Notes under the pieces: model-generated
Database searches by the model: none
What the model saw: the letters and a program-made list of their open reading frames with translations, nothing else
What the model was told of the DNA's origin: nothing
Program-made: the position numbers and the translations under genes
In this document: positions 467 to 13,485 of the stretch, one piece after another
Position numbering within the stretch: the stretch's first letter is position 1
Layout: every line of letters starts with the position of its first letter
Origin: a virus
IMG/VR virus record: IMGVR_UViG_3300018424_000256
Location: 1 to 24,093 of that record
Length of the DNA: 24,093 bases
Strand: one strand, 5' to 3'

Positions 467-673
467 TTAACTATTTAGTGAGTCCGTAGCGATGTTTTCC
501 TGACTGTCACTACCCGAAGAAGTTGGAGTGGGAAATCCAACCATAAATGCACCAGGGAAAGCCTTCTTAAAGTTAGAGCAAGCTCCCACTTGAGTGGCAG
601 CATAAACGTGACCTTTAAGACGTTTAGAATCTCCCTTGTAATAGTATTCAAAATCCCACCTTGTAGCACTCAT
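467..673 (-). CDS. Small hypothetical protein (68 aa)
   Basis: Complete 68-codon frame. Its ATG at 673 overlaps the TGA stop of the VWA/metalloprotease gene (670-672) as ATGA, so translation is probably coupled to that gene. The N-terminal half is aromatic and basic (RWDFEYYYKGDSKRLKGHVY). The middle contains the one Cys (residue 32) and a Gly/Phe/Pro stretch, and the tail is Ser-rich and acidic. There is no membrane helix or recognisable catalytic motif. Its last codons carry the late-promoter motif for the next gene. I do not recognise the family. Confidence 0.75.
   Translation of the reverse strand: MSATRWDFEYYYKGDSKRLKGHVYAATQVGACSNFKKAFPGAFMVGFPTPTSSGSDSQENIATDSLNS
472..477 (-). promoter_or_regulatory. 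Late-promoter motif CTAAATAG upstream of the 65-aa gene
   Basis: On the minus strand the sequence is CACTAAATAGTTAA. The TAAATA core matches the T4-like late -10 element (TATAAATA in T4, relaxed to NATAAATA/CTAAATA in cyanophages). It sits in the last codons of the 68-aa gene (Leu-Asn-Ser-stop), 22 bases before the next ATG. The same arrangement recurs in front of the virion genes. Confidence 0.55.
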
Positions 674-2853
674 GCAATTTGCTCCACAAACTTGTTCAAA
701 ATAGACTTGTTGGTCATCTTAGAATTCATGTGCTTCTTAAATGCACGAGTCAGTTCACCTGCAGTAGCAGATTCACCTTTCTGTTTGATCTCCAAGTCTT
801 GTTCTCCACCACCAATGTTGTTAGCAGGAAAGACGTACAGTTCGTCATATCCGTACTCAGTGATAGCACAGAACTTTTCCTTGGACCACTGCTTCTCATA
901 AGCATCCATATGATGCCAAGAGATTTGATGCAGGATCGTAGTGAGATCGTGTTTGTTCCCGATGCGAATACCAATCCAGTTGCAATCAGTAATATTATTG
1001 AAGAACGATACAATCTCTTTAGTGGTATAAGATGCATCGGGGTTCAGGCGAGCAGTATGTCGGGTTACAGGATCTCGCAGAATAAAGATCTTGTGGTATT
1101 GATGGCAAAGATAATCCATACGATACCAAGGACCTTCTTCCTGAAAAGAGTTGGTGTTCTCGCGATAACGATAGTTTTCATAAGAACACTCTCTCACATA
1201 GGAGAGGGGATTGGATTCCCCATCACTCAAGATAATAACATTAACTTTCTGAACTCCTTCAATCTTACGGAAAGATTTAATGATTTCAGTTGAGCACATA
1301 ACTGCTTCACCGAGAGGAGTCCCACCCAGACTATATCTTGGGTGGGGATTCAGGTGATAACCATTCATGCTCCAGACGTGAGTCCACAGATATTTCATCT
1401 GATTATCAAGTTCTGAAGTAGTCATCTTAGAGGAGAAGAACTCATACAGTTCAAATGTCTCATTCAAACCCAGAACATTGCTCTTCAGGTTGAACATCTT
1501 CTGCTCATTGAGTGGCAATTTGTGATAACCACTGTTGAAGGCATACACACGGAAGGGAATGTTGACTTTCTTACAGAACCAAATAAGGTTGTAAGTCTGC
1601 TTCAGAGTATCAGTCAGAAGAGTTCCTGTCGGGGTAGAGGAAGACATAGAACCAGACCAGTCAAGATACATGACCAGTCCATGATTCTTACCTTCAGGGA
1701 CCGTGACAACTTTCTTAAAGATGTCGTCAGTCAGTTTGTATTTGTACAGAGAATTGGTGTTGACAACGCCAGTACGAGAGACACCTGCACGAGCATAGAC
1801 ATCTGCAGACTTCTTCATCTCAAACTGCTTAACCATGTAGTTAACAGTTTTGAGTGACGAATGTTTGAACTCGTTAAACTTTTTGAACTGAAATGCAACT
1901 TGTTTTGTTTGATGCTGCATATCAATCTCACTTTCCCATTTACGGTTGAAGTGGGACTTCAAATCAGATACAACTTGTTTGTAAGGAGTGATGATTTCCT
2001 TGATATTCACTTGAGGAAGATCAAGATAGATCCACTCCTTAGCGTTGTCATCCACCAAATCTAACTGTGAACGTTGAGATGCAGCATCAGTGATGCTTTC
2101 CAGTTCATCAGTATCCCCACCAATATCACCACGCTCATAACTTGGGACATCCAGTTGAGCAGGATCGTTACTAGCGTCATCATCACGATCTTCAGTGTCT
2201 TCATCAGAATTATCAAATTCTGATGGATCGGAACTGGTGGGTTGTTGCTCTGCACCAGGACCAGACTGAGTGTTGGAGGGTTTGATATCTGGAAGATCAG
2301 TAGGTTCTTCAACCATCTTACTCTTTGCAAACTCATAGAGTTCGGAAGCAAGATTAACTACATCTCGGAACGTAACCGTTTTAGCAACACGCTCAATCCA
2401 GGGTTTCTCTTCATCCGAGAAAGGAATCTCAACAAAGGAACCAATCTTGAAGTGCAAATTGATACGATCAATCAGCGCAAGAGTATCCAGACTGCGGGCA
2501 TTGATACCGAAAAAGTCGCGGTCCATCAGTTCGGTATACCCACGATAGAAGGAACGCTTCAAACCAGGATAAGTGACTTTCATCTTACGCTCAATACGAG
2601 CGTCTTCCAGAACGTTCACAAAATCCTTTGGAGCGTCGCCAAAGTCTTCGTTAGGGGTATACAGAGCATGACCCACCTCATGACCAACCAGAAGGTCGTA
2701 CACGTCGTTGCTGACATCCACCCAGATGGGGAGTGCTAGGATGCGACGATCTACATCAAAGTATGCGGTGGTGATTTTACGGTGTTCAACATTGAGGTTT
2801 TCGGTTGCCAGAAGTTTGGCGAGTTGACCCTTGACCTCTGTGTTGACTGCCAT
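670..2853 (-). CDS. Metalloprotease-like and von Willebrand A domain protein (CobT/NorD-like architecture)
   Basis: A 727-aa protein (748 aa if read from a GTG at 2916; residue numbers below follow the long form). Residues 79-83 are HEVGH, a HExxH zinc-protease signature. It is followed by LEDARIE at 103-109, whose Glu could be the third zinc ligand. Residues about 203-295 are an acidic low-complexity linker. A C-terminal VWA domain has an intact MIDAS: D419-x-S421-x-S423 (LDWSGSMSS), T533 (GGTPLGEA) and D565 (LSDGES). HExxH plus ExxR followed by an acidic linker and a VWA domain is the layout of CobT/NorD-type partners of MoxR-class AAA+ ATPases such as CobS. Cyanophages commonly carry a cobS-like gene, though none is in this window. 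I chose the ATG at 2853 because a sigma70-like promoter lies immediately upstream and the GTG has no ribosome binding site. The protein has been called simply a peptidase in related phages. Substrate unknown. Confidence 0.85.
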   Translation of the reverse strand: MAVNTEVKGQLAKLLATENLNVEHRKITTAYFDVDRRILALPIWVDVSNDVYDLLVGHEVGHALYTPNEDFGDAPKDFVNVLEDARIERKMKVTYPGLKRSFYRGYTELMDRDFFGINARSLDTLALIDRINLHFKIGSFVEIPFSDEEKPWIERVAKTVTFRDVVNLASELYEFAKSKMVEEPTDLPDIKPSNTQSGPGAEQQPTSSDPSEFDNSDEDTEDRDDDASNDPAQLDVPSYERGDIGGDTDELESITDAASQRSQLDLVDDNAKEWIYLDLPQVNIKEIITPYKQVVSDLKSHFNRKWESEIDMQHQTKQVAFQFKKFNEFKHSSLKTVNYMVKQFEMKKSADVYARAGVSRTGVVNTNSLYKYKLTDDIFKKVVTVPEGKNHGLVMYLDWSGSMSSSTPTGTLLTDTLKQTYNLIWFCKKVNIPFRVYAFNSGYHKLPLNEQKMFNLKSNVLGLNETFELYEFFSSKMTTSELDNQMKYLWTHVWSMNGYHLNPHPRYSLGGTPLGEAVMCSTEIIKSFRKIEGVQKVNVIILSDGESNPLSYVRECSYENYRYRENTNSFQEEGPWYRMDYLCHQYHKIFILRDPVTRHTARLNPDASYTTKEIVSFFNNITDCNWIGIRIGNKHDLTTILHQISWHHMDAYEKQWSKEKFCAITEYGYDELYVFPANNIGGGEQDLEIKQKGESATAGELTRAFKKHMNSKMTNKSILNKFVEQIA

Positions 2854-2918: not shown

Positions 2919-3053
2919 TTATTTGTGTCTATATCTGTGCGGGTTCTTCAATGAGTCATGGCAGTAGAACGCAATCGGTGCGAACATGGATGTTGCCATG
3001 ACACAAATAACTATTGGATGCTGACTGACCCAGTGTACTACGTTATGGATCAT
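2919..3053 (-). CDS. Small one-helix membrane protein (44 aa)
   Basis: A 44-codon frame fills the otherwise empty gap between gp46 and the VWA gene. Its ATG at 3053 overlaps the last codons of gp46 out of frame, and it ends with TAA at 2919-2921. The product begins MIHNVVHWVSQHP, then has a hydrophobic stretch at residues about 14-30 (IVICVMATSMFAPIAFY), followed by a basic His/Arg tail. That is the profile of a single-pass small membrane protein. No clear ribosome binding site precedes it, so coupling to gp46 termination would be required. Coding is inferred from fit to the gap, the overlap with gp46 and the coherent hydrophobicity. It could still be chance. Confidence 0.5.
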   Translation of the reverse strand: MIHNVVHWVSQHPIVICVMATSMFAPIAFYCHDSLKNPHRYRHK

Positions 3054-4761
3054 AGGAAAGTTTAGAGAAATCGTTGACCTTTTCAAACTTAATAGTTCTC
3101 ATGAATTTGTCAACAAGGATCTCTCCTTTATGTGATATCACAAACAGATTGACCTTTTCCAAACCTCTAAGGATTTTTAGTAGTTCCTGGGTGGAAGAAT
3201 CATCAAGAGAACTATCAAATACCTCATCCAGAATCAACAGATTCGTAGAGGCAGAGTTCTTCATGCGAGCAACTTCACGCCAGGTAAACAAGAGTGCAAG
3301 ATCAATCTTCTGTTTCTCACCTTCAGAGAAAGATGAGTAAGAGAAGTCATCTCTAAAACGAGACTTAATGACTTCATTGAACTCATTGTCAAGGGTGAAG
3401 TTCACATAGAACTCCATACTTTGTAAATATTTATTGATCAATTGGTTGAAAACTGGAACATATTTGTTGATCACCGTAGATTTTATACCAGAATCTTTTA
3501 ACAAATAGGATACAGTTTGATATTCCGTCAGTTGTTTGTTGATTTCAGAACAATTCTTCTCAGTTTGTTGTAATTCATTCTTAAGAGAATCTAGAATTTC
3601 ATTTTCCTCTTGTACGTTAGGTTGAAATTCTTTTAGATTTTGTATTTGTTGTTGAAGTTTTAGATTTAATTTACCAAGATTGATAATGTCACGATCCTTC
3701 TGCGATACAGAGGTTTGGAGATCCATCAACTGACGATTGACCTGATTGATTTCACTCAGGTTCTTCACAACCAAATCAATCTGAGTCTCTAGTTTACCAA
3801 GACCATCAGTATACTTTGCACTCTCCTCAGTAAGAGAAGAACACTTGTGGTTCTTCAGATCATCCTCAATATCCTGACTACAGGTAGGACAGGTATTATT
3901 TTCAGTGAAGAACTTCAGTTCTCGTGAAACAGTATTATGCTTTGACTGAATTTTTGAGCGAAGATTCTTCAATTTGTCCAGATCCTTCTGAACAGAATCA
4001 TATCCCTCTACTTCCTTCTGCTTAACAGAGATCAACTCAAACAGTTCAGACTTCTCTGTCTCCAGACTCAGTGCTCGGTTCTCATTATTTACAATCTCAT
4101 CTTCTTTCTCACGCACACGCTCATCATTGATCTCTGCCAGTTTGGCAATGTGCTTCTCTTGAGTTTCAACCTTAGTCTCTGCCAAGGTCAACATGTGATC
4201 ACAGTCACGTCCACGCTCAGTCGCATCCTTGACACGATCTTTGAGCAAAGTGTTCATTACTGAAAAGATCTGGATGTCAAGTAGATCTTCAATAACTTCT
4301 CGTCGGTGAGCGGCAGGGAGCTGCATGAAGGGGACAAAAGTTGATGATCCAAGTATAACGACTTGAGTAAATGACTTGAAATTGAGTTTGAGGACTGACT
4401 GCTCCAGATACTTTTGGTAGTCTTTCGCTGCAGCATCTTGGTCAACCAGTTTGTCATTTTCGTAAATCTCAAATTTGCCAGGTTTAATGGTGCGCCGCAC
4501 CAAATAAGTCTTGCCGTTTGTTTCAAACTCTACTTCAACAACAGTGCCTTTCTCATTGACACTGTTAACCAATTGGGGTTTGTTGATCTTACGGAACGGT
4601 TTGTTGAACAAAACAAAGCACAGGGCGTCCAACATAGTAGACTTCCCTGCGCCGTTGGTTCCGATGACCAGAGTAGAACTGCAATCATTCAGAACAATTT
4701 CGGTGAACTGATCCCCTGTACTAAGGAAGTTCTTCCACCGAATCTTTTGAAAGGTAATCAT
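3043..4761 (-). CDS. gp46: gp46 recombination endonuclease subunit (Rad50/SbcC-like ATPase)
   Basis: A 572-aa SMC-type ATPase, close in length to T4 gp46 (560 aa). Walker A is GTNGAGKST at 34-42, and the Q-loop glutamine is in FTQVVILGSS near 133. Coiled-coil arms (about 175-285 and 300-425) flank the zinc hook CPTC at 291-294. The ABC signature is FSEGEKQKIDLAL at 478-490 and Walker B is LLILDEVFD at 508-516. With gp47 it forms the Mre11/Rad50-like complex that resects DNA ends for recombination-dependent replication and helps degrade host DNA. Its ATG at 4761 overlaps the TGA of the upstream 85-aa gene (ATGA). The sequence before it is C-rich with no Shine-Dalgarno, so translational coupling is likely. 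All catalytic elements are intact. Confidence 0.97.
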   Translation of the reverse strand: MITFQKIRWKNFLSTGDQFTEIVLNDCSSTLVIGTNGAGKSTMLDALCFVLFNKPFRKINKPQLVNSVNEKGTVVEVEFETNGKTYLVRRTIKPGKFEIYENDKLVDQDAAAKDYQKYLEQSVLKLNFKSFTQVVILGSSTFVPFMQLPAAHRREVIEDLLDIQIFSVMNTLLKDRVKDATERGRDCDHMLTLAETKVETQEKHIAKLAEINDERVREKEDEIVNNENRALSLETEKSELFELISVKQKEVEGYDSVQKDLDKLKNLRSKIQSKHNTVSRELKFFTENNTCPTCSQDIEDDLKNHKCSSLTEESAKYTDGLGKLETQIDLVVKNLSEINQVNRQLMDLQTSVSQKDRDIINLGKLNLKLQQQIQNLKEFQPNVQEENEILDSLKNELQQTEKNCSEINKQLTEYQTVSYLLKDSGIKSTVINKYVPVFNQLINKYLQSMEFYVNFTLDNEFNEVIKSRFRDDFSYSSFSEGEKQKIDLALLFTWREVARMKNSASTNLLILDEVFDSSLDDSSTQELLKILRGLEKVNLFVISHKGEILVDKFMRTIKFEKVNDFSKLSYDP

Positions 4762-9522: not shown

Positions 9523-9934
9523 TATGAAATCCTATTAGCGCGTCGTTCCAGTCCCCTGAGTGATCCCATGGGTCAGGTATCTGTATCGTAGTGCTTGGAG
9601 ATGCCATGCCTGCGCTAGACTCTTCGGTCCCTCGCTCAACAACCTCATTTCTAATGATGAGAGTTGGAAGGTCGGGCACGCTAGAAGGTCTTTCCTCCAC
9701 TGTGGTAGTTCTGGCGACATTCGTTTGCTCCTCCCACTGCTGTACGATTGATTTGGACTGCTGATCTACAGAGTCCATTTCCATTTCAATTTTACCATTA
9801 ACCCAATGTTTGTGCAACCAGTCAATTATACCTAAGTAAATTTGGTTCCAGGGATATTTTTGATTGTTTGCCCAGCGTTTAGATTTGGTATACCATGTAT
9901 CCTCACCACCCCACTGATGCTCAAATTTCATCAT
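9473..9934 (-). CDS. Hypothetical protein overlapping UvsY (153 aa)
   Basis: A 153-aa frame with ATG at 9934, overlapping the previous stop as ATGA. The first 60 residues look like a genuine folded segment rich in Trp and Tyr (seven Trp by residue 45, e.g. HQWGGEDTWYTKSKRWANNQ). The middle (about 55-120) is low complexity and rich in Ser, Thr and Glu. The tail carries another Trp-rich patch (PDPWDHSGDWNDALIGF). The final 16 codons read out of frame through the start of UvsY, and a one-base shift would end it at TAA 9522-9524, exactly touching the UvsY ATG. The C-terminus may therefore be an extension caused by an indel. Function unknown; it sits beside the tube-like protein and may be structural. 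Confidence 0.75.
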   Translation of the reverse strand: MMKFEHQWGGEDTWYTKSKRWANNQKYPWNQIYLGIIDWLHKHWVNGKIEMEMDSVDQQSKSIVQQWEEQTNVARTTTVEERPSSVPDLPTLIIRNEVVERGTEESSAGMASPSTTIQIPDPWDHSGDWNDALIGFHNESRRTSKNVGEGQSN

Positions 9935-10503
9935 GACTCTCTGCGTGTGCCTCTGTTAACGGAACGGATTTCGTAAAGCGTATATCTGAAAGTTACCTCT
10001 GCGGTAAAAAAGTTTGTGTCAGTTTGAGTGACATCAAATGCAAGCGTGGATAAAGAAGTTGGAAAAGCATCCTTAAATAAACACTCAAATGCACCTTGGA
10101 AATTATTGTTCAAAGCGATCAAAGTGATGTCACTGACTAGACTTTTATATGCATAAGTCTTCTGGACATTAGCGGGACGTTTCGCTTCAATCCATCTTGC
10201 TCTTTCATCCAAGTCGTTCGGTGTCCCCAAAGCACGCATCCAATTGTGAATCTCTAGATAATTTTCTAAATTTTCATCAACTAGAAACTCAACTGTAAAA
10301 TCTCCATACTTGATATTTCCATCAATGGGATATGGGACAAGTCCCCTGGTTGGAATATCCACTTCACCAACTTGGATTGTTGGGATGTTAGCGGTCTGGC
10401 AGAGGAATGCTGCCTTGGGTGCTTTTTCCAAGGTCAATTTGAAACCAATTGGTGCAAGGAAGTTTTTATTCTTTAACTCCTTTTCATACCATGTAGCAGC
10501 CAT
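9931..10503 (-). CDS. Tail-tube-fold protein, probable gp3-like tail completion/sheath stabiliser
   Basis: A 190-aa protein that shares the fold pattern of the tube gene at 17253-17843. Its ANIPTIQVGEVDIPTRG aligns with ANLPSAQMGIIEVPFRG of gp19, and FTVEFLVDENLENYLEIHNWMRAL with the gp19 segment WTVTIMNDSKFSLRNAFETW. The pattern 'FLVDENLENYLEIHNW' is typical of T4-type tube-related proteins. In T4, gp19, gp54, gp48 and gp3 share this fold. In cyanophages the copy between the capsid gene and uvsY is, as I recall, annotated gp3, which terminates the tail. It has a good GGAG ribosome binding site and a late TAAATA motif 19 bases upstream, as expected for a virion protein. The paralogue assignment (gp3 versus gp54) is inference. 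Confidence 0.78.
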   Translation of the reverse strand: MAATWYEKELKNKNFLAPIGFKLTLEKAPKAAFLCQTANIPTIQVGEVDIPTRGLVPYPIDGNIKYGDFTVEFLVDENLENYLEIHNWMRALGTPNDLDERARWIEAKRPANVQKTYAYKSLVSDITLIALNNNFQGAFECLFKDAFPTSLSTLAFDVTQTDTNFFTAEVTFRYTLYEIRSVNRGTRRES

Positions 10504-10520: not shown

Positions 10521-12035
10521 CTATTTAGTGTAAATGTCGTCACCAACCACTACTGCATCCAGTTCGGTCTCATGCATTAGTTGCAGCGCCTCTATAGGCG
10601 ATCCCGCAATCGGAGCACCACCATTATTCAAAGAAGTGTTGAGGACCATTGGGATGCCTGTGAGACCCTCAAACTCGCTAATCAGTTGATAGTAGTCTTC
10701 ATGCTCTGGTTCCACAGACTGTGGTCTGCATGTGCCATCAAAGTGTGTGATAGATCCGAAGGAAAACTTGTCCTTGACATCCATTACATAAAGCATGTAA
10801 GGTGAGTCATATTCCCAATCAAAATAATTTGGTAGTTCATCTGAGAGAATTGATGCGCCAAAGGGACGGAACATCTCGCGATGCTTCACCTTCTCATTGA
10901 TAATATCTTTACCACCTTTGACACTAGGATCCATTAGAATACTTCTGTTACCAAGTGCTCTGGGTCCTACCTCGCCATGACCTTGATACCAACCAACAAT
11001 CTTACCTTCTGCCAACATCTCGGCAGTTTTTTTAATTGTAAGACTTGAAGGTCTGCGCTCAGGTGCTTCATCACTCTGCCAGAATGGGAATCCATCTCTA
11101 CTGAGTTTGGGTTCTTTATAATGTTTTCTGAGAACTTCTACAATACCAAGTGACAACCCCTCATCGTTGCAATGAGGAGGAACAACCAGTCCTGGTCTCT
11201 TAAGTTTGATTCTGCTATTGATAATAGTATTCAAAGCAATACCACCAGAGTATGTAAATACATCATCTTCCTTTGTATTCTCTAGAAAGTATGCCTCGTA
11301 GATATCCTCACTAACTTCATGTGCAAACTGGATGTGATCACATGCAAACTGCTGAGGTTTGTTTTTTACAATCTGCCCCAGTTTCCATAGGTCCCAGAAC
11401 TCACGAATGTCTGCGATAGTTAGTTCGTCAGTCTTTTGTGCCCGCTTCATGCGGTCCATATCTTCCTGACTATATCTGCCCATTGCTTTCAATGCCATGA
11501 CCTTACCTGCCATGTCATTGGAGATACCCTGCAAGTTTAAGATTGCGCCCACATCACCCATGGTAGAACCAAAACTCGGGTGGGTGTTATAAGTTACTGC
11601 AAACTCTCTTTGTCCATTTTTTAGTCTGGAGTGTGATAGTTTGTTGTCACCAAATCCATCAAACACAAAATCAATATCAGACTTATCGGTCAACATCCAC
11701 GCACTTTCTGCGTGTGCATAGTGGTGATCAATACGATAAATTGGACCCTTGTATCCCATGTCTCGGAACAACGGGATATCAATTTTTTCAAAAATATTAT
11801 TTTCGTCGTAGTTGATTGACTTGTATCGGAAACAATCCACTACAATTCCGATAGCATCAATCTTGGATAGAGGCACTCCCCATTTAGCAAAAGGTTTCAA
11901 CCATCCAGTTAAATTTTTATATCCCCAGTGTTTAATCTGGGAGTCTCTTTCACTCTTATAGTAATATACCTTCCCGTCTACGGTTAGTGTGATATTACTG
12001 TCGTGGTCACAAAGACGCAATCCTAAAAAGTTCAT
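10521..12035 (-). CDS. Carbamoyltransferase, NodU/CmcH/TobZ family
   Basis: A 504-aa enzyme with both domains of the family. The N-terminal ASKHA/Kae1-like domain has H11 (LCDHDSN), the HHYAHAESA metal-binding signature at 104-112, D126 (DGFGDN), and the nucleotide/phosphate-binding TYSGGIALN at 261-269. The C-terminal domain has GHGEVGPRALGNRSILMDP at 352-370. Family members transfer a carbamoyl group from carbamoyl phosphate, through carbamoyl-adenylate, to a hydroxyl of a sugar or antibiotic. The phage substrate is unknown; modified nucleotides, or a sugar on DNA or the virion, are possible. The ATG at 12035 is only 10 bases past the gp23 terminator, with no promoter visible, so expression relies on read-through. 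Its stop is built into the late promoter of the next gene. The length is near the usual 500-600 aa. Confidence 0.93.
   Translation of the reverse strand: MNFLGLRLCDHDSNITLTVDGKVYYYKSERDSQIKHWGYKNLTGWLKPFAKWGVPLSKIDAIGIVVDCFRYKSINYDENNIFEKIDIPLFRDMGYKGPIYRIDHHYAHAESAWMLTDKSDIDFVFDGFGDNKLSHSRLKNGQREFAVTYNTHPSFGSTMGDVGAILNLQGISNDMAGKVMALKAMGRYSQEDMDRMKRAQKTDELTIADIREFWDLWKLGQIVKNKPQQFACDHIQFAHEVSEDIYEAYFLENTKEDDVFTYSGGIALNTIINSRIKLKRPGLVVPPHCNDEGLSLGIVEVLRKHYKEPKLSRDGFPFWQSDEAPERRPSSLTIKKTAEMLAEGKIVGWYQGHGEVGPRALGNRSILMDPSVKGGKDIINEKVKHREMFRPFGASILSDELPNYFDWEYDSPYMLYVMDVKDKFSFGSITHFDGTCRPQSVEPEHEDYYQLISEFEGLTGIPMVLNTSLNNGGAPIAGSPIEALQLMHETELDAVVVGDDIYTK
10522..10527 (-). promoter_or_regulatory. 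Late-promoter motif CTAAATAG upstream of the gp3-like gene
   Basis: The minus strand reads ACACTAAATAGTTAAA. The final TAG of the carbamoyltransferase (10521-10523) is part of the motif. The core lies 19 bases before the ATG at 10503, with the ribosome binding site GGAG (10508-10511) between. Confidence 0.6.
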
Positions 12036-12096: not shown

Positions 12097-13485
12097 TCAC
12101 ATCAGGTTGGCAACCTGAACGCGACGATAGTAGCGGTTGCTGTTGGCGGTCAGAGCGCCAGAACCCTGAGTAAGACCTTGAGCGAAGGGGTTGGAGACCA
12201 TGCCGTAGCGGGTCTTGAAGCCAATCTTCGGCTGGAAGGTGTCGGGGTTGATAGCACGAACCTGCTGCAGAGGAACGTAGGGGCAATAGAACAGACCAGC
12301 ATCATAGGCGCTGCTACCCTTGTAACCAGCAACGTAGAAGTGCTTATCAGCAACGTTGGCAGAATAAGGATCAACGTAGACCTTGATACGACCGTTCAGA
12401 GTACCGACCAGGGTGCTGGAGGTGTCATCGGGGATCAGACCGTTGTTGCCGTTCAGGGCAGGGGCGTAATCCAGAACACCAGCCATGGCGAGGGCGGAAG
12501 CAACGTCTGCAGAGCAGATCAGGATGTTGCCCTTCCCGCGACGAGTCTGATGACCGATAGCGTTAGCATCACGCTCAATCTGGAACAGAAGACCCTTGAA
12601 CTTCTCAACGCTCCAACGACCGTTGGAATCAACGTCAAGGTCAAAGATACCAGCGCTAGCGGTATTGTTCTGAGCACCAGCGACAGCGTTGGTGTAGACG
12701 GTACGAACAACCTCACGGTTGATTTCAGCAAGGATCTCAGTGCTGAGGATGTTGCTGAGTTCCTGCTCGGCATCCAGACCATGAATTGCCTTCAGGTCTT
12801 GGGCAAGCTCAAGGCTGTACTCAGCTTTCAGGGCACGGGACTTGGCAGTCACGGTGACCTTTTCAATGCTGAAGCCCATCTCGCGGAAATCAGTACCCGA
12901 TTCGCCAAGGCTCTCAGCGGCAGCGGTATTCATGCCAGTAGCATCGCCAGTCAGCTCATAGGTGCCAGCAGGGCTGTCATTGAGGAGACCAGGGTTGTTA
13001 CCTTCAGCATCGTTGTCGGTGCTGCTGGAAGCGCCAGGATCGTAGGTGGTAGACGTGTCGCCACCAGAGAAACCAGCGTTAGGCTCGTTGAAGAATGCTT
13101 CGTCGTAACCAGCGCCAGCGGGGTTGGTGCCAGTGCCGTAGTTGGAGCGCATTGCGAAGATCAGTCCAGTAGGACCAGTCATCGGTTGTACACCAGCGAT
13201 GTCATAAGCGATCAGCTGGGGCATGGAGCGTCTGATCAGGGAGATCAGAACGGGGTCAAAACCTGCGACAGGACCAGTAGCGGTAGCGCCGCCACCGAAA
13301 CCACCAGTGCCAGCGGCCATGGTAGGTGCCTCGGTCAGCATTTGTGCCTCTTCACGGGCAGCAAATTCTTGGTTTTCCAGAAGTTGAGCGACAACCGCTT
13401 TCTTATGAGAATCAGTAATCTCAGGGAGAGCTTCGTGATTCAGAACGGGTGCCCACTTCTCTTGGAGTTGTTTAAGATCAGCCAT
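12097..13485 (-). CDS. gp23: gp23 major capsid protein precursor
   Basis: A 462-aa T4-type major capsid protein, shorter than T4 gp23 (521 aa) as usual in cyanophages. Residues 1-52 form a helical propeptide ending in L50-T51-E52, a match to the gp21 protease consensus (L/I)-x-E, so cleavage before A53 is predicted. The mature chain has the conserved segment RRSMPQLIAYDIAGVQPMTGPTGLIFAMR near 86-114. It also has RALKAEYSLELAQDLKAIHGLDAE, the HK97-fold spine region, and ends in GFKTRYGMVSNPF. The start is supported by AGGAGA at 13489-13494. Two late-promoter motifs precede it and a strong terminator follows, matching the need for high expression. Its codon use is noticeably richer in GC than its neighbours, giving a long spurious antisense frame. 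Confidence 0.98.
   Translation of the reverse strand: MADLKQLQEKWAPVLNHEALPEITDSHKKAVVAQLLENQEFAAREEAQMLTEAPTMAAGTGGFGGGATATGPVAGFDPVLISLIRRSMPQLIAYDIAGVQPMTGPTGLIFAMRSNYGTGTNPAGAGYDEAFFNEPNAGFSGGDTSTTYDPGASSSTDNDAEGNNPGLLNDSPAGTYELTGDATGMNTAAAESLGESGTDFREMGFSIEKVTVTAKSRALKAEYSLELAQDLKAIHGLDAEQELSNILSTEILAEINREVVRTVYTNAVAGAQNNTASAGIFDLDVDSNGRWSVEKFKGLLFQIERDANAIGHQTRRGKGNILICSADVASALAMAGVLDYAPALNGNNGLIPDDTSSTLVGTLNGRIKVYVDPYSANVADKHFYVAGYKGSSAYDAGLFYCPYVPLQQVRAINPDTFQPKIGFKTRYGMVSNPFAQGLTQGSGALTANSNRYYRRVQVANLM

Follow-up and report, generated by a model that had tools for sequence, protein, structure and literature searches.

A metallopeptidase-VWA protein as the probable partner of the CobS-like ATPase in T4-like cyanophages

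A protein of 727 aa, whose family is present in nearly all T4-like ocean cyanophages and usually labelled 'peptidase' or 'CobT', is probably the metallopeptidase-VWA partner of a phage MoxR-type (CobS/NorQ-like) AAA+ ATPase, with a predicted gluzincin-like domain, and not part of a cobaltochelatase. Comparison of sequences establishes a fixed pairing of the two genes, intact ATPase motifs, a MIDAS, an HExxH...E arrangement and a kinship of the N-terminal domain with cellular and plasmid HExxH-VWA proteins. Structural models support a VWA fold like that of NorD and an N-terminal domain of minimal-zincin type.

The cobS gene is one of 25 core genes in T4-like cyanophages (PMC3037559), where it is routinely read as a sign of vitamin B12 metabolism, although one paper states that what it does in phages 'remains uncertain' (PMC11288001). 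The latter source gives phage cobS and cobT the functions of the cobalamin synthase CobS and of the lower-ligand enzyme CobT, which have only their names in common with the cobaltochelatase subunits. Two published readings are in conflict. Liu et al. 2021 hold that phage CobT has been mis-annotated as a peptidase (PMC8651126). Iyer et al. 2021, in the part of their article available here, describe a MoxR-vWA pair in group 2.2 jumbo phages, in which the vWA protein bears an N-terminal metallopeptidase, and propose a function in virion assembly (PMC7824862). The idea is therefore already in print in pieces; the sequence tests presented below separate the two readings and favour a metallopeptidase-VWA protein working with a MoxR ATPase. 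New here are the pairing numbers, the contrast between an intact site in cyanophages and its absence from genuine CobT, the search for CobN in SAR11, the structural models (NorD-like for the VWA domain, minimal zincin for the N-terminal domain) and the homology of the N-terminal domain with bacterial and plasmid proteins.

The gene and its parts

The window, that is, the whole 24,093-nt stretch analysed, comes from a T4-like cyanophage: homologues of gp46, gp47 and UvsW lie on its minus strand, as do sheath, capsid, portal and terminase genes, these ORFs being judged by eye. The gene of interest (670..2853) is also on the minus strand, which the sequence-only reading had not specified, and runs from an ATG at 2853 to a stop at 670. 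Its product belongs to PHROG 459 ('peptidase'; T4-GC 146 in P-SSM4), whose profile matches residues 3-727 with an E-value of 1.2e-283. Scans of the protein with Pfam, NCBIfam and PADLOC returned no family above cut-off. A sequence search of the PDB, whether with the protein or with the phage profile, gave no true match; CobT was retrieved at an E-value of 8.5 through the acidic linker only. The upstream neighbour encodes a gp46/SbcC-like recombination nuclease subunit (3043..4761, minus strand), which is context and lies outside the proposed machine. Two small conserved genes (253-450 and 467-673; PHROG 1461 and 3120) lie between the 727-aa gene and cobS. Elsewhere in the window, a NolO-like carbamoyltransferase gene (PHROG 1601; 10521-12035) is directly flanked by the apparent major capsid gene (12097-13485) on one side and by an ORF at 9931-10503 on the other.

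The sequence-only reading had placed HEVGH, LEDARIE, an acidic linker and a complete MIDAS in one chain, and all four were confirmed. The N-terminal domain (residues 1-183; 2305..2853), predicted to be zincin-like, contains HEVGH at residues 58-62 (2668..2682), with H58 and H62 as predicted metal ligands and E59 as the predicted catalytic residue. LEDARIE follows at residues 82-88 (2590..2610); its E83, 21 residues after H62, is a candidate third metal ligand. The linker (residues 184-248; 2110..2304) has 19 D/E and 3 K/R in 65 residues and is predicted to be disordered (pLDDT below 50). The VWA domain spans about residues 391-680 (814..1683) and carries the three MIDAS motifs: DWSGS at residues 398-402 (1648..1662), T512 in GGTPL (1318..1320) and D544 in LSDGE (1222..1224). 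HExxH alone occurs in 3.7% of shuffled versions of the protein, and the spaced pattern HExxH-x(18-24)-EDxRI in 0 of 20,000 shuffles, so that the motif pair is beyond chance.

Conservation and distribution

We aligned 89 homologues. H58, E59 and H62 are kept in all 87 that have data at these positions, and E83, D84 and R86 in 88 of 88; the family thus displays the gluzincin signature of HExxH with a downstream glutamate, and the conservation of the two histidines, set beforehand as a check, was borne out. The MIDAS residues D398, S400, S402 and D544 are present in all 89 sequences, and residue 512 is either T (79) or S (10). The six N-terminal residues also hold over 61 N-domains when cellular ones are included, and other, broader sets of homologues gave a consistent picture.

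The family is carried by 463 public phage records, nearly all of them cyanophages; the others are Pelagibacter, Stenotrophomonas, Pseudoalteromonas and Ochrobactrum phages. We also found T4-like phage contigs within bacterial and archaeal genome assemblies (L092-L110), an isolate genome included; one is a 188 kb contig (L101) in Nonlabens xiamenensis 1Q3. They are probably contamination or co-assembled phage. The Pseudoalteromonas phage XG4, with a GenBank entry flagged UNVERIFIED, encodes its VWA module and its HEVSH module in two distinct ORFs whose order is inverted (L085:4679-5878 and L085:5890-6921); a cobS-like ORF that lacks an intact N-terminus comes after them. A genuine split would mean that the halves are able to function in trans.

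Linkage with cobS

The presence of a MoxR/CobS-like gene in the genome was a point on which the sequence-only reading could have fallen. The record itself contains no cobS and stops about 0.6 kb short of it; a contig (L006) that is 100% identical over the shared gene encodes a 352-aa CobS 1.27 kb downstream, so the gene is there. Of the loci compared, 72 extend 2.5 kb or further downstream of the gene, and every one of these contains a cobS gene, a count that does not amount to 72 independent events, the loci being related to one another. This linkage backs the proposal that the 727-aa protein is the true partner of cobS. When all 101 loci with both genes are considered, the gap between them is 300 nt or less in 57; cobS lies upstream in two (L099 and L108), on the other strand in one of these.

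Co-occurrence across cyanophages, also anticipated, proved exact in a survey of 50,697 phage records, where the tallies of the two genes are equal class by class: 365/365 for Synechococcus, 61/61 for Cyanophage, 24/24 for Prochlorococcus and 3/3 for Pelagibacter. The genes are adjacent in Mosig, HTVC008M, MED4-213, S-CRM01 and DLP6, of which Mosig and HTVC008M are SAR11 phages. In the Stenotrophomonas phage DLP6 the pair is located between primase-helicase and thymidylate synthase genes; its flanks are unrelated in S-CRM01 and DLP6, and the pairing persists.

In the phage CobS, Walker A, Walker B, sensor 1 and arginine residues are intact. A profile search with this ATPase matched CobS (7.7e-47) and NorQ (8.6e-21) among PDB entries, as well as CbbQ. 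A 'MoxR family ATPase' that PMC9964418 regards as peculiar to S-CREM1 has 66.7% identity to the L006 CobS and is the ordinary core cyanophage cobS.

Predicted folds

In the full-length model (pLDDT 77.8) the linker is disordered and a VWA domain is present. With the modelled VWA domain as a Foldseek query, the top four PDB matches were the NorD VWA in NorQ-NorD complexes (E-values of 5e-6 to 1e-5). Modelled alone with AlphaFold2, the N-terminal domain reached a pLDDT of 90.7 and a pTM of 0.86, and its predicted layout of three strands, an HExxH helix (49-65) and an E83 helix (76-94) corresponds to a minimal zincin/gluzincin topology. Nearly all its best PDB matches in Foldseek are zincins (ArdC, jannalysin, abylysin, selecase, LTA4H, BlaR1 and IrrE among them). 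Because the E-values are weak, 0.058 at best, the assignment to a zincin fold is drawn from topology, motif and the consistent ranking. Structure prediction of the protein alone, one of the checks proposed with the sequence-only reading, thus points to a NorD-like VWA domain and an N-terminal domain of minimal-zincin topology.

According to the available parts of two structural studies (PMC13036017, PMC9976466), the VWA domains of MoxR partners insert a finger into the pore of their ATPase, and ATP hydrolysis is proposed to twist the VWA domain and stretch the linker. The model's secondary structure offers a candidate for such a finger, a strand-rich insertion after the MIDAS strand (residues 546-606; 1036..1218).

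Cellular and plasmid relatives

A genome scan revealed bacterial proteins that combine HExxH...LEDxRI with a VWA domain, several of them encoded next to a Walker-A ATPase gene that shares their strand. The N-terminal domain of the phage family aligns with that of these cellular HExxH-VWA proteins in hhalign at 99.1% probability (E = 5.7e-19), and the cellular proteins themselves match CobT over their full length at 99.5%. Relatives of one of them (L123) occur on 1,221 plasmids, of which 977 are conjugative, and HExxH is kept in an IncC plasmid example (L137). RecT/Bet and exonuclease genes stand beside the HExxH-VWA gene in both L123 and L137. A DUF3150-type gene precedes it in three loci (L116:2570-3871, L123:2518-3990 and L137:3633-4910, annotated as such in the last). 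Furthermore, an HExxH-VWA protein is encoded in one Halomonas genome apart from a CobS-CobT pair that lacks HExxH; the presence of both in one genome indicates that CobS-CobT and HExxH-VWA are two systems.

Cutting or gripping

It is conceivable, if rather unlikely, that the HExxH domain is a pseudo-enzyme, which would bind a metal or a protein, cut nothing and only provide a remodeller with its second grip, like the NorD N-domain. NorQD does remodel through its N-domain and its VWA domain, according to the accessible portion of PMC13036017, and HExxH is absent in CobT. The motif has also been lost in a CobT-like protein of the Pseudomonas phage nickie (L086:2439-4523), where it has decayed to SEISK, which suggests that cutting is dispensable in some such machines; a relative of this protein in the E. 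coli phage CMS-2020a (L087:2374-4482) keeps HEVAH. Against a general loss of catalysis, H58, E59, H62 and E83 never vary among 87-88 sequences whose identity otherwise falls to about 26%. E59, the presumed catalytic base, would be dispensable for metal binding and is nevertheless conserved as strictly as the metal ligands, a pattern that speaks for catalysis over simple metal binding.

Genomic context and target

An unlikely alternative, in our estimate, is that the pair acts late as a chaperone or protease of virion assembly, as advanced for the group 2.2 jumbo phages (PMC7824862) and by analogy with the tail of the Acidianus two-tailed virus. The domain plan described there is the same, and large phages need proteolysis for maturation. 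However, in nearly all phages examined the pair is located among replication, recombination and repair genes: its neighbours are gp46/47, sigma-55, gp45/44/62 and primase or polymerase genes, not head or tail genes. No NATAAATA late-promoter motif was found within 200 nt upstream of the 727-aa gene in 18 homologues, although read-through from a late operon is possible; in the window, two late genes do have the late-promoter motif TATAAATA ahead of them. Our literature search returned no account of expression of the 727-aa gene during cyanophage infection. On the strength of the neighbourhood of the pair and the lack of a late-promoter motif just upstream, we place the target most likely in the replication/recombination phase, although gene neighbourhood is a weak guide to it. 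The evidence for an early/middle-stage target over virion assembly is suggestive only. The confidences attached to these readings partly overlap, as the pseudo-enzyme and late-assembly alternatives both keep the MoxR-VWA pairing and depart from the favoured reading in catalysis or target alone.

The cobaltochelatase question

Liu et al. 2021 (PMC8651126) proposed that the protein is CobT and that, with the phage CobS, it takes over the host CobN to raise cobalamin production. A VWA domain, an acidic linker and an AAA+ partner are indeed found in CobST, the cellular HExxH-VWA proteins are related to CobT over their full length, and the cyanobacterial hosts would offer a CobN to capture: in Prochlorococcus and Synechococcus genomes CobN is present and CobT absent. 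However, HExxH occurs in none of 27 genuine CobT proteins, compared to 87 of 87 phage homologues. A direct profile comparison of the phage family with CobT reached only 15.6%, and TIGR01651, the NCBIfam model of CobT, did not match the 727-aa protein at E<=1. The phage ATPases cluster in a clade of their own, which long branches separate from genuine CobS, and no CobN was found in 11 phage genomes. One CobT locus (L140) does contain an HEPAH, which was discounted, as it lies in an upstream extension of a 951-aa frame, ahead of a CobT of about 630 aa.

SAR11 phages also carry the pair. As we found no direct statement in the literature on the absence of CobN from their hosts, SAR11 genomes were tested directly. 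Two genomes were identified as SAR11 with four 16S probes and were considered together with 58 others of the same family; none of the 60 encodes CobN/ChlH. A viral cobaltochelatase is thus improbable overall, and a chelatase role is unlikely even in Prochlorococcus and Synechococcus hosts. The earlier preference for protein remodelling over cobalamin biosynthesis is favoured by the HExxH-free CobT, the separate CobS clade and the lack of CobN in 11 phage genomes and in 60 genomes of a SAR11 family.

Proposed mechanism and implications

If the metallopeptidase-VWA protein works with its ATPase as NorD does with NorQ, one copy would dock on the ATPase hexamer with its strand-rich finger in the pore, and the MIDAS and the N-terminal domain would grip a target protein in two places. 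Hydrolysis of ATP might then turn the VWA domain against the N-terminal domain, stretching the acidic linker, and the predicted metallopeptidase would cut, or merely grip, the opened target. Its gene neighbours and the missing late-promoter motif suggest, as the most likely target, a protein of the phage or of its host that acts in the replication/recombination phase. Such a machine would make no cobalamin.

We tentatively suggest, as a possibility that falls short of even odds, that the 'cobS/cobT' auxiliary metabolic genes of marine viromes, in Kyanoviridae and relatives, are non-metabolic and encode a phage-core, ATP-driven protease or remodeller with a replication-stage target, of a kind also present on IncC-type conjugative plasmids and other bacterial elements. 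The label 'auxiliary metabolic gene' for this family in marine virus surveys then appears doubtful, and if the true partner of cobS is a metallopeptidase-VWA protein, inferences on B12 drawn from virome cobS counts need revision.

Comparison with known systems

Within PHROG 459/T4-GC 146 the 727-aa protein is a full member of a family that has been named and not assigned a mechanism. The pair from group 2.2 jumbo phages, which can be likened to ours by description, has the same domain order and an adjacent MoxR ATPase and is phage-borne; the available part of PMC7824862 sets it in group 2.2 and does not mention cyanophages (group 2.1) or a link to cobS.

The likeness to CobT and NorD put forward from the sequence holds for the VWA part and the overall plan, whereas HExxH proves to be a difference from CobT and not a common trait. 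CobS-CobT (PDB 9uka; TIGR01651) has in common with the phage pair an AAA+ partner, a MIDAS-bearing VWA domain and an acidic linker, and CobT retains a weak E-x-A-R-x-E echo of LEDARIE. However, the N-terminal domain of CobT is of another type, without HExxH and with HHD..H..P and EQARxEA, which is not found in the phage protein. NorQ-NorD (PDB 9qh6 and 9qhd; PMC13036017, in the part consulted) provides the best structural match to the phage VWA fold, together with a disordered linker between N-domain and VWA and a MoxR partner; the four Foldseek matches to NorD are confined to the VWA region, and that part of the paper reports no protease for the N-domain. Finally, the bacterial and plasmid HExxH-VWA proteins (L116, L123 and L137) have N-terminal domains homologous to that of the phage protein and conserve its H, E, H, E, D and R residues; unlike it, they are cellular or plasmid-borne and, over their full length, more CobT-like.
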